DNA from: Rubricoccus marinus
GTDB taxonomy: Bacteria; Bacteroidota; Rhodothermia; Rhodothermales; Rubricoccaceae
DNA length: 64,000 bases
Direction: 5' to 3'
NCBI RefSeq assembly: GCF_002257665.1
Contig: NZ_MQWB01000001.1
Coordinates: forward strand, 2,438,843-2,502,842
Positions 12,021-16,527 of this stretch are shown here, one piece after another (the first letter of the stretch is position 1; the number at the start of each line of letters is the position of its first letter). The notes below the pieces were generated by a model. It was not told the origin of the DNA. It was given only the letters and a program-made list of their open reading frames with translations, and made no database searches. Both the position numbers and the translations under genes were made by a program.

Positions 12021-14021
12021 TCAGGCCGCGACCGGGCTCAAGACCTCCCGCCCCAACTCCGCCAGCGCCTCCAGCGTGAGCGACTGCGGCCCGTCCGAGA
12101 GCGCCTGATCCGGGTCCGGGTGCGCCTCCACGATGAGGCCGTGCGCGCCAGCGGCCAAGGCCGCGCGGCACAGCGCGGGGACCCACCGGCGGGCGCCAGC
12201 GGCGTGGCTGGGGTCCACGATGACGGGCAGGTGCGTCCGCTCTCGTGCGACGACCACCGCCGAGAGGTCCAGCGTGTTGCGCGTCGCCGTCTCGAACGTG
12301 CGGATGCCGCGCTCGCACAGGATCACGCGCTCGTTGCCGCCCGCGAGGACGTACTCCGCCGCCGCCAGCCACTCGTCGATAGAGGACGACATGCCGCGCT
12401 TGAGCAGAACTGCCGTTTGCGTGCGCCCGACCTCTTTGAGCAGCTCGAAGTTCTGCATGTTGCGCGCGCCGATCTGGAGCACGTCGGCCTCTCGCGCGAC
12501 GGCCTCCACGTCGCGCGGGTGCAGCACCTCGGTCACGATGGGGAGGCCGTTGGCGCGGCCGGCCTCGTGCATCATCGTCAGTCCCTCGAAGCCGAGCCCC
12601 TGGAAATCGTACGGCAGCGTGCGCGGCTTGAAGCACCCGCCGCGGAGCATGACGCCTCCCGCCTCGCGGACGCCTCTGGCGGACTCGAAGATCTGCTCGC
12701 GGCTCTCGACCGAGCACGGCCCGGCGATCAGGACAGGCGGCTCGTCGCCGCCGATGCGCACGTCACCGATCTGCACGACCGTATCCGGCCGGTCGCCGCG
12801 GTCGACGAGCTTGGCGCGGCGGGCCTTGACGCTGGCCGTGCCGCGCGTGGCCGGGGCGCGAGAGGCGACGGGCGCAGCCTCTGGCGTCGCCGTGCGGTCG
12901 CGCCCGGCGTGGAAGACGGGGTACGAGCCGAGCACGCGGAGCGACTGCGTGTGGGCGCGCGCGGCCTCAACCGCGGCGGCGACCTCTGGCGTTCGCGCGT
13001 CGCCCTCGATGTCGGCGTAGAACAGGCTCTGGAACGGCGTCGTGGGAGAGGGGCGGCTTTCGAGCTTGGTCAGGTTGATCTCGGCATCGGCGAACACCTG
13101 CAGGACCCGCGCGAGCGCGCCGGTCTCGTGATTCGTGGAGAGCACGAGCGAGGTTTTGTGCGGCAGCCGCGCATCGTGCGCCAGAGGCTCCCGCGCGACG
13201 ATGAGGAAGCGCGTGAAGTTGTCTTTCCGGTTCGCGATGTTGCGCTTGATGATGTGGAGCCCGTAGCGCTCCGCGGCGTCCTCGCCTGCGATCGCGGCGC
13301 GCGTCGGATCGCCGGACTCGGCCACGAGCCGGGCCGCGCCGGCGGTGTCGTCCTCGGCCTCGACGCGGGCCGAGAGCCCGTCCAGGAACAGGCTGCACTG
13401 GCGGATCGCCTGCGGGTGTGAGCCGATGCGCTGGATCTGCTCCACCTCGACCGGCTGCGGCGCCATCAGGCAGTGCTCCACCTTCAGGATCTCCTCCCCC
13501 ACGAGGTGCAGGCCGGGCGCTACGAGCAGGTCGTACACGCCCGAGATCGGTCCGGCGGTCGTGTTCTCGACCGGCAGGAGCGCGCGGTCGGCCCGGCCAG
13601 AGGTCAGCGCCTCCAGCGCGCCGCCAAAGGTTGTCGCGCCCTCGTACGTCACGCCGTCCATCGCGGCAAAGTGGTGCCGCGCGGCGGAGTGGCTGTAGCA
13701 GCCCGGCACGCCCTGGTAGGAGATCCGCAAGCCCGCCGCCTCGCCAGAGGCGTGGGCGGACTGGAAACGGACCGAGTGGCGCAGGATCTCGCGGTAGAGC
13801 TGGCTCGCGAAGTAGCCGTCCACGCCGGCCTCTTCCGCGAGCGCGTGGACGCGCGCCAGAAGCGACTGCTCGCGCTGGGCGTCTTGCAGCGGGAGCGCGT
13901 CGTTCTCGGCTTTGAGGTCGGCCACGTCGCGGACGAGGTCTTGCCGTTCGGCGAGGGCGGCGATCAGCCGCCGGTCGGTGGCGTCGAGGGCGTCGCGGAG
14001 GGATCGGAGGGCGTCGGACAT
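12021..14021 (-). CDS. Trifunctional chorismate mutase / prephenate dehydratase / DAHP synthase
   Basis: A 666-aa fusion carrying the first step of the shikimate pathway and two steps of phenylalanine synthesis. Residues 1-88 are an AroQ-type chorismate mutase. Residues 98-276 are prephenate dehydratase, with the NFTRF motif at 268-272. Residues 288-370 are an ACT regulatory domain with the phenylalanine-site ESRP at 321-324. After a motif-coded Ala/Pro linker, residues 405-666 are a type I-beta DAHP synthase (AGPCS 433-437, IGARNMQN 517-524, HPDP 634-637). Two-domain fusions of these activities are well known; all in one chain is unusual. The ACT domain probably gives phenylalanine feedback, possibly over both ends. 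An attenuator-like leader precedes it. Confidence 0.92.
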
Positions 14022-14049
14022 GAGGCGGGGCGCCAGAGGCGCAGGCAAC

Positions 14050-14078
14050 AAAAAAAGCCCGCTCGGAAGGAGCGGGCT
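14050..14078 (-). terminator. Rho-independent terminator acting as attenuator
   Basis: On the minus strand AGCCCGCTC and GAGCGGGCT form a perfect 9-bp stem with a 5-nt loop, followed by seven T. It lies 29 nt upstream of the aromatic gene's ATG and 29 nt downstream of the leader peptide stop. No minus-strand gene precedes it except the leader, so the terminator is placed to control read-through into the aromatic gene. Confidence 0.85.
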
Positions 14079-14092
14079 CGGCAGAAGGCGTC

Positions 14093-14109
14093 GTGTGGGC
14101 GTCCGGCTA
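14093..14109 (-). promoter_or_regulatory. Leader hairpin that could compete with the attenuator
   Basis: On the minus strand GCGTCC and GGACGC (17 nt in all, loop TAGCC) form a hairpin that includes the leader peptide stop codon. Just upstream, GACGGGCC and GGCCCG can form another stem overlapping the Trp codon of the leader. These are candidate pause or anti-terminator elements; the switching geometry has not been computed. Coordinates are approximate to a few bases. Confidence 0.45.
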
Positions 14110-14196
14110 GGACGCGGGCCACGGCCCGTCGCTACCGGCCCGCGCATCGAAATACGCGGGGGCGGTAAACGAATAGGAGGGCGCGGCGAACGGCAT
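14107..14196 (-). CDS. Aromatic-residue-rich leader peptide
   Basis: A 29-codon reading frame starting [10 protein letters not shown] and ending PWPAS. It has three Phe (3, 10, 16), two Tyr (8, 15) and one Trp (26), over 20% aromatic in a stretch where neighbouring genes use mostly Ala, Gly and Arg. It ends 29 nt before a perfect terminator hairpin, which is followed after another 29 nt by the start of the Phe/shikimate trifunctional gene. That layout matches ribosome-mediated attenuation as in the enteric pheA and trp operons. There is no obvious Shine-Dalgarno sequence. A TAGTCTTG box four bases upstream suggests a leaderless start. Confidence 0.7.
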
Positions 14197-14200
14197 GGCC

Positions 14201-14208
14201 CAAGACTA
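14201..14208 (-). promoter_or_regulatory. Candidate -7 box TAGTCTTG for the attenuator leader
   Basis: Read on the minus strand this differs from TAnnTTTG at one position and ends four bases before the leader peptide ATG, so transcription would begin at or next to that ATG. A copy of the iterated 10-mer ends 3 nt upstream of it. Confidence 0.45.
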
Positions 14209-14382
14209 CTCGCGCCAGAGGCCCGGCGCCACGTTTTCTTCACAGGTGGCCTCTGGCGCCGCAGCGAGTGCCGCGCCAGCGGCGGGGGATTTTTCGGAGT
14301 CGGGCTTTCTGTGTGCCCGCTTGACTGGCTACCATTCCGGTAAGCGCTTTCATACGCTCCCTTTCCACCGCCGACAGACCTC

Positions 14383-16527
14383 ATGACTCTCGATACCCCC
14401 TTCGCGCGCATAGCGCTCCTCTTCGCCTTTCTGTGCCTCGCGCCCGCCTCTGGCGCGCAGGACCAGCCCGCGATGTTCTACAGCGGCGAGTTCAACGGCT
14501 TCACCGCTGCCCCGATGACCTACCTCGGGCCCGGACCGGACAACTGGGTCGTCACGCTGGCGGCCCCCGCGACGGACGCGGAGTCCAACTTCCTCTTCCG
14601 CAACAGCAGCGAGAACTTCAACGAGAAGTGGTCGCGCGGGGACGCCGTCGCGTTCGACGCGCTCACGACGTGGTTCGACCAGGGCGGCGACGGCCGGATC
14701 GCCGTCACGGCCGGCAACAGCTACACGTTCGTGATGCAGGACGTGGGCAACACCGAGAACTCCTCGGGCATCGTGATCGAGACGAGCGGGCCTCTGGCGG
14801 CCGTCGCGGGCGTGAGCCGCGCGCCTGCGGCTCCGCAGGGCTCGCAGCGGCCCGTGATCACGGCAACGCTCAGCGCGCCTCTGCCGACAGGACAGGGCGT
14901 CTACCTCCGCTCTACCGCCGACGCTTTCGCGAGCTCCACCGTGACCGAGATGGCGTGCGCCGCCCAGACGTGTACCGCCGAGATCCCCGCCTCTGGCGTC
15001 GGCGCGACGGTCGTGTACTACGTGTTCTCCTCCGCCGACGGCCTCCTCATCAGCGGCGCGCAGGCGGACCGGTTCACGGCCAACCTGAACAACAACGGCG
15101 GCGCGAACTACAGCTACACCGTCGCCGCGTCCACAGCCACGGTTTCCGGCGCGGACGGCTACCGCATGTTCGCCGCGCCAGAGGCCGGCTTCACGGTCGG
15201 CGACCTCCAGGCGTTCTCGCTCGTGCAGGGCATCCCCTCCAGCAGCCCCGACGAGGCGGACAACGTCTACACGTGGAACGGGGCCGCCTACGAAGGCGCC
15301 GCTTCCGCAGCGGACGCCCTGCCCAGCGGTGAGGGCTTTTTCTGGTTCCTCCGCGACACCAACCGGGGTGGCAGCACGCCCTTCCCCGTTACGCTCACGT
15401 CCTCCGGCGCCGCGCCGACCGGTGATGTCCAGGTCAGCTTCTCCAGCACGGACTTTCTGGCCGGCAACCCCTTCCAGGGCGACTTCCGGCTGAACAGCCT
15501 CCAACTCGCGGGCGGCGCTCTGCAAAACGACGTGTCGATTTGGGACCCCAACGGCGCCGGGATGTCCAACGGCAACGCCGGCACCTACGTCACGCGGTCC
15601 CGCAGTTCGGACGCGACCGTCGCGGCCTGGCAGGGCTTCTGGGTCGAGGCCTCCTTTGCCCCGACGGCCCTCAAGTCCGGCGGCTTCTCGCTCACGTACC
15701 CTGTCAGCGGCGTCACGTCCGGCGCCGTGTTCGTGGGCAAAACGAGCGCGCCCGTTTCGCGCCTCCGCTTCCTGCTGAACGGCGACGGCGTCGCAGACCA
15801 CGCGACCTCGCTCGTCGTCTCGCCAGAGGCGGACCTGGGCTACGACGCCTACGACCTCGGCAAGCGGACGCCTCTGGCGGAGCGCTACGTCGCCCTCGCG
15901 TTCGAGGGATCCGAGTTCCTACAGGCGACGGCCTCCGTCCCGAGCGGCGCCGAGAGCGCCATCGCGCTGCCTCTGGCGCTCGACGCGGTTGGCTACTCCG
16001 GCTCGCTCACGCTGACGTGGACGCGCGAAGAAGCGGACCTGCCCGAGGGCTGGGCCTACCTGCTCCGCGACCACGTGACGGGCGAGACCATCGACCTGCT
16101 GGCGACGGACCGGTACACCTTCTCGGTCTCCGCCGCGAAGTCCGCCCGCTCGCGCGAGGAGATCCTCACGCAGTCCGGCGCCCTCACGGATGGCGAGATC
16201 CGCTTCACGCTCGTCGCCGGCCCCGCCAACGTGGTCGCGACGGAGGGCGCCGCCGCGCCAGAGGCCGACGCGCTCACCGCCGCGTACCCCAACCCGACGA
16301 GCGGCGCGGTCCGCATCGGGCTGGACCTCGCCTCTGGCGGCGACGCCACGCTCGTCGTCTTCGACCTGCTCGGCCGCGAGGTCGCGCGCGAGGCGCTGGG
16401 CGTCCGCCCGGCGGGCCCCCAGAACGTGACGCTGGAGACCGCCGCGTGGGCGACGGGCACCTACCTCGTCCGCCTGGACGTGGACGGCGAGCCGCGCGCC
16501 ACGCGCCGCCTGGTGCGCGTTCGCTAG
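14383..16527 (+). CDS. Secreted protein with type IX secretion C-terminal sorting domain
   Basis: A 714-aa exported protein. The signal peptide ends near residue 25 (APASGAQ). The body is Gly/Ser/Thr/Asn-rich and beta-like, with no catalytic motif I recognise; a repeated [21 protein letters not shown] segment and a later [23 protein letters not shown] segment resemble parts of large Bacteroidota surface proteins. The last 80 residues start [15 protein letters not shown] and end in a basic TRRLVRVR, the type A sorting signal (TIGR04183-like) recognised by the Por secretion system and cleaved at the surface. No T9SS machinery gene is in the window. A strong terminator follows. Confidence 0.85.

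Follow-up and report, generated by a model that had tools for sequence, protein, structure and literature searches.

In Escherichia coli, the leaders of pheA and trp possess a Shine-Dalgarno site and an untranslated 5' region. Attenuator leaders of a different make have been described in Actinobacteria. Streptomyces lividans has the leaderless attenuator peptides LeuL, TrpL1 and IlvL (PMC8079986), and Corynebacterium glutamicum has leaderless attenuator peptides for ilvBNC, trpE, leuA and aroF (PMC4046766, citing Morbach 2000), of which the aroF leader carries Phe-Tyr-Phe before a DAHP synthase gene (PMC4046766). Translation of its ilvBNC leader takes place with no ribosome-binding site (PMC4046766). 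Mycobacteria have polycysteine leaderless short ORFs that sense cysteine (Canestrari 2020, cited in PMC9031893). As of 2010, knowledge of such systems was said to be confined to Proteobacteria and Actinobacteria, to which PMC2965389 added Firmicutes. For Bacteroidota, a study on Flavobacterium psychrophilum mentions clues for leader-peptide attenuation upstream of amino-acid biosynthesis operons (PMC9723704).

Attenuation requires a ribosome close behind the RNA polymerase, and timely loading of this ribosome is puzzling where Shine-Dalgarno sites are rarely used. Here we analyse a locus within a 64,000-nt stretch of Rubricoccus marinus DNA (the window, numbered from its first letter) at which a leaderless leader peptide probably governs a downstream fusion gene by ribosome-mediated transcription attenuation. 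The features of the locus are collected in Table 1.

Table 1. Features of the leader region and the gene it precedes, in window coordinates.
Feature	Position	Strand	Remarks
Weak -33 element GTG	14230..14232	(-)	21 nt upstream of the -7 box; relatives have TTG here
Alternative -33 element TGG	14229-14231	(-)	20-nt gap to the -7 box
-7 promoter box TAGTCTTG	14201..14208	(-)	consensus in Bacteroidota TAnnTTTG; begins 12 nt ahead of leader ATG
Predicted transcription start	14196	(-)	A of leader ATG; from the 12-nt box-to-start distance
Leader peptide ORF	14107..14196	(-)	29 codons, 3 Phe, 2 Tyr, 1 Trp; counterparts in relatives
Candidate regulatory codons	within 14107..14196	(-)	F3, Y8, F10, Y15, F16 (W26)
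Candidate antiterminator strand GCGCGGGCC	14137..14145	(-)	position matches GGCGGGC of relatives; window copy alone p = 0.30 versus shuffles
Leader-stop hairpin GCGTCC-TAGCC-GGACGC	14099..14115	(-)	stop codon inside the loop
Intrinsic terminator	14050..14078	(-)	9-bp stem 14078-14070 / 14064-14056, loop CTTCC, seven T at 14056-14050; counterparts at the same place in relatives
Structural gene under presumed control	12021..14021	(-)	666 aa; chorismate mutase + prephenate dehydratase + ACT domain + DAHP synthase fusion

Re-reading of the minus strand confirmed the 29-codon ORF and its aromatic content as given in the first-pass annotation, and likewise the statement that no minus-strand gene lies upstream of it, the neighbour being a divergent gene that starts at 14383 (+). 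The downstream gene, with its ATG at 14021 (-), had been called a phenylalanine/shikimate gene. It goes beyond pheA: the 666-aa protein contains the Pfam domains CM_2 (residues 8-87), PDT (100-278), ACT (299-354) and DAHP_synth_1 (415-656), and is thus a CM-PDT-ACT-DAHPS fusion. Such a four-domain protein couples entry into the shikimate pathway, its first step, with the Phe branch; no description of it was found in our search of the openly accessible literature.

The terminator arms AGCCCGCTC and GAGCGGGCT pair perfectly over 9 bp around a loop of 5 nt, spanning 14078-14056, and the terminator is also detected by a terminator scan; stem and T-run are as previously annotated. The distances from the leader stop to the stem and from the T-run to the ATG had both been given as 29 nt and measure 28 nt. 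A hairpin over the leader stop does exist, at the position given in Table 1 and not at 14093-14109 as proposed.

The first-pass placement of the TAGTCTTG box, four bases ahead of the ATG, is right. Measurements in Flavobacterium locate the -7 box TAnnTTTG at -12 to -5 (PMC9723704), and with the first base of TAGTCTTG 12 nt before the ATG, transcription is therefore expected to start on the A of the ATG itself. Of the 11 aromatic leaders found in this work, 10 have a promoter score of at least 10, the leader with a poor score being L042. Only 0.45% of shuffles score as high, and no long-ORF start in the window does (0/110). The box-to-start distance is 11-13 nt in nine of the 11 leaders and 15 nt in the remaining two. 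The first-pass proposal of leaderless translation is supported by this promoter spacing, kept to within 0-3 nt in 10/11 aromatic leaders and much the same in Trp leaders across the class, and the peptide is very probably translated from a leaderless 5' end. A scan for sigma-70 type promoters gave none, as expected for Bacteroidota.

One more sequence occurs around the leader. The decamer GCCTCTGGCG/CGCCAGAGGC is found 261 times in the window where 0.65 copies are expected. The whole genome has 14,176 copies, about one in every 312 bp, equally on both strands. Copies at 14213-14222 (-) and 14031-14040 (-) flank the leader, one of them lying within the promoter spacer. The same-genus genome G046 has 99 copies and seven other family members have 8-77. 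The decamer is a species-specific, highly iterated short sequence, with a density resembling that of HIP1 in cyanobacteria.

Relatives were searched in 114 genomes of the window's order, eight of which carry the full CM-PDT-ACT-DAHPS fusion, across three families (f1, f4 and f9). The first-pass annotation had proposed comparing Phe/Tyr codons and hairpins among relatives, and both are retained: a short aromatic-rich ORF and a terminator are found at the same place before all 8/8 fusion genes, and the same layout with unrelated sequence precedes three further chorismate-mutase-containing fusions in family f12 (L042, L048 and L050). Across these leaders a terminator lies between the leader ORF and the structural gene. 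Phe or Tyr codons are present in 11/11, with 4-12 aromatic residues each (p from 3e-6 to 0.04 each), and the clusters in relatives include YYGYWF, SFYFYGFAF, FSFYFYFYFGY (L016) and AYYAFSFYFYFYFYAF (L050). Between families the leader RNA sequence diverges and the ORF content is kept. Of all members, the window copy has diverged furthest, having a weak -33 element and a modest aromatic enrichment, with 6 residues in 28 codons (p = 0.002 versus a background of 4.9%), in addition to the antiterminator value listed in Table 1. Six of the eight fusion leaders come from close relatives and are therefore not independent, which limits the pooled codon tests likewise.

Aromatic leaders with a terminator were absent (0/40) from stand-alone genes (20 PDT and 20 DAHPS), and neither the second DAHPS gene of the window's genome nor its relatives have a leader. 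As a control, 90 loci (715 kb, both strands) were scanned for F/Y/W-dense ORFs followed by a terminator; this yielded nine trp leaders and no others. Sequence and comparison show the leader ORF, its aromatic cluster, the terminator, the promoter spacing, the antiterminator complementarity across families and the association with the gene, and the comparative evidence places the arrangement well beyond chance. It is the comparison that carries the case, the window copy alone being weak.

Codon choice was compared between leaders and structural genes in G+C-rich genomes, where TTT and TAT are rare. In eight leaders, TTT encodes 16/22 Phe (73%) versus 10/136 (7%) in the structural genes, and TAT encodes 11/21 Tyr versus 5/102. 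Within the leaders, T-ending codons account for 27/43 at Phe/Tyr-type codons versus 15/110 at other C/T-ending codons (Fisher p = 4e-9, an optimistic value since the leaders are partly related). As the other C/T-ending leader codons remain C-ending (95/110), the TTT/TAT excess is not a matter of loose codon use in short ORFs. Whether attenuators are sharpened by rare codons, as was proposed long ago, is disputed (PMC1183508).

In relatives, an antiterminator GGCGGGC:GCCCGCC folds before the 3' arm of the terminator exists, GGCGGGC being located directly after the aromatic codons. In the window, GCGGGC (14138-14143) is complementary to GCCCGC in the 5' arm of the terminator (14072-14077). Complementarity was tested sequence by sequence because the MAFFT alignment misplaces the diverged window copy. 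For 32 aromatic and trp leaders it is above that of shuffles (mean z = -1.97), and it is still retained in L016, L042, L048 and L050, the sequences of which are unrelated (p 0.000-0.026 each versus shuffles). The complementarity is thus found at the level of the family, the window copy by itself giving p = 0.30.

Folding of the leader RNA, also proposed in the first-pass annotation, showed the window copy to be stabler than dinucleotide shuffles (z = -3.97). In 10/10 copies folded, the terminator forms when the ribosome sits on the stop codon. When the ribosome is stalled instead, equilibrium still favours the terminator in most copies (P near 1), and only L042 and L050 have a thermodynamic preference for the antiterminator. 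Since the terminator wins at equilibrium in most copies despite the stalled ribosome, the switch must be kinetic, and we infer that the decision between antiterminator and terminator would be made during transcription.

A second attenuator of like design occurs in the window's genome, upstream of trpE (L269). It has the leader MTTDTLRAWTWWHPASAMGAQSRHA, a terminator, and a promoter TTG-N20-TAGTTTGC located 12 nt before the ATG. The boxes TAGTTTGC and TAGCTTGG precede the trp leaders of the family at a matching distance, which is 12-13 nt in four relatives. Sixteen Trp leaders from other families have box-to-start distances of 12-16 nt, where the start codon was picked by best score, a choice that favours this result. 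In a sample of the phylum, similar Trp leaders were found elsewhere in the class and, beyond it, in a single family (f24); they were absent from family f25. In some genomes of family f13, His-rich leaders with terminators precede hisG (L059-L062, L064, L067-L069, L072, L077 and L080), and most of these leaders lack the leaderless spacing, so that several start types may coexist. Another 14 hisG regions had no His-rich leader. Upstream of leuA, 30 genomes showed no leader that is Leu-rich and followed by a terminator, under the criteria used. The window's own genome, rated 97.7% complete, has no match to the hisG or leuA families, which suggests that its His and Leu pathways are missing or that the enzymes are divergent.

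Three other explanations were weighed. Attenuation could be real and the leader nevertheless be translated from an ordinary 5' untranslated region, transcribed from a promoter further upstream. The GTG in place of TTG as the -33 element of the window, the poor promoter score of L042 and the deviating hisG leaders of the order would fit such an arrangement, against which stands the box-to-start distance: 9/11 aromatic leaders have 11-13 nt, and the family's five trp leaders have 12-13 nt. We consider this explanation unlikely. Still less probable is that the short transcript acts as a small RNA in its own right, or that termination is constitutive and fixes a low expression, the aromatic codons being incidental. 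Equilibrium folding is mostly on the side of the terminator, and weak Rfam matches to small RNAs lie over the hairpin; all are below gathering scores, and a small-RNA identity of the leader on these grounds was rejected. What speaks against incidental codons is that four families retain the antiterminator and the aromatic codons, with the rare T-ending form of the latter, only before the same enzyme functions, and that trp operons share the layout with Trp-rich leaders.

Control of amino-acid genes by riboswitches, TRAP-like proteins or T-box-like elements occurs in other phyla, and a leader RNA bound by a metabolite or protein, with the ORF unused, would be the corresponding reading here. Against it, the ORF content is kept between families and the RNA sequence is not; a search of the leader against Rfam, including Phe_leader and Trp_leader, gave no family above its gathering score. 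This reading appears the most improbable of the three.

Ribosome-mediated attenuation, the layout put forward in the first-pass annotation, is thus favoured by the retention of leader and terminator in relatives, and the leader most likely works as a gauge of aromatic-amino-acid supply. For where transcription starts, for the stalling of the ribosome, for which amino acids are sensed and for the extent of termination, we infer the following course. RNA polymerase would initiate at the leader ATG, or one to two bases off, from a promoter of the -33/-7 type, and the ribosome would load on the 5' end without a Shine-Dalgarno sequence. During a shortage of charged Phe or Tyr tRNA, the ribosome would stall at the aromatic cluster, consisting mostly of the rare codons TTT and TAT; the GC-rich strand just downstream could then pair with the terminator's 5' arm, allowing read-through into the CM-PDT-ACT-DAHPS gene. 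With ample supply, the ribosome at the stop codon would mask the GC-rich strand, so that the terminator forms and transcription ends.

A wider generalisation is somewhat better than an even bet. Trp and aromatic attenuators across the class, and partly in the wider phylum, would keep the promoter box at a set distance of 12-16 nt from the leader start codon, 5'-end loading of the ribosome would be a design rule where Shine-Dalgarno sequences are little used, and rare T-ending Phe/Tyr codons would sense for the fused enzyme of the first step and the Phe branch. A conserved layout with the promoter on the start codon, before aromatic and tryptophan genes of many families, offers a concrete and testable answer to the problem of ribosome loading. 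It also permits annotation of amino-acid responses in little-studied bacteria from sequence only.

In comparison with described systems, the designation "new variant of the mechanism" in the first-pass annotation was too strong. Leaderless attenuator peptides are published for Actinobacteria (Corynebacterium, Streptomyces and mycobacteria), and the window leader is therefore not a new mechanism. Such leaders had also been called rarely described in relatives within Bacteroidota; leader attenuation has been noted in Flavobacterium, and our search of the openly accessible literature found no description of such a leader for the window's lineage or for the fusion gene. The Flavobacterium psychrophilum leaders belong to the same wider group and are likewise located before amino-acid biosynthesis genes; unlike for the window leader, neither a leaderless start nor an aromatic fusion gene is given in the passages concerned. 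With the polycysteine ORFs of mycobacteria, the window leader shares a leaderless short ORF that would gauge an amino acid through ribosome speed, whereas those ORFs are described as acting on the translation of genes downstream and the window leader has an intrinsic terminator instead. The E. coli pheA and trp attenuators are similar in their cognate-codon leader peptide and in the competition between antiterminator and terminator, and differ in having the Shine-Dalgarno site and 5' untranslated region, while the window leader has no Rfam match. The leaders of Actinobacteria resemble it in the short ORF, the cognate codons, the hairpin and U-run where present, and the lack of a ribosome-binding site or the leaderless start. 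They have their own promoter types and starts determined by RNA-seq, whereas the window leader combines a Bacteroidota -33/-7 promoter and a predicted start with the CM-PDT-ACT-DAHPS fusion. The window leader is thus a conserved new branch of ribosome-mediated attenuation, a mechanism known in kind.
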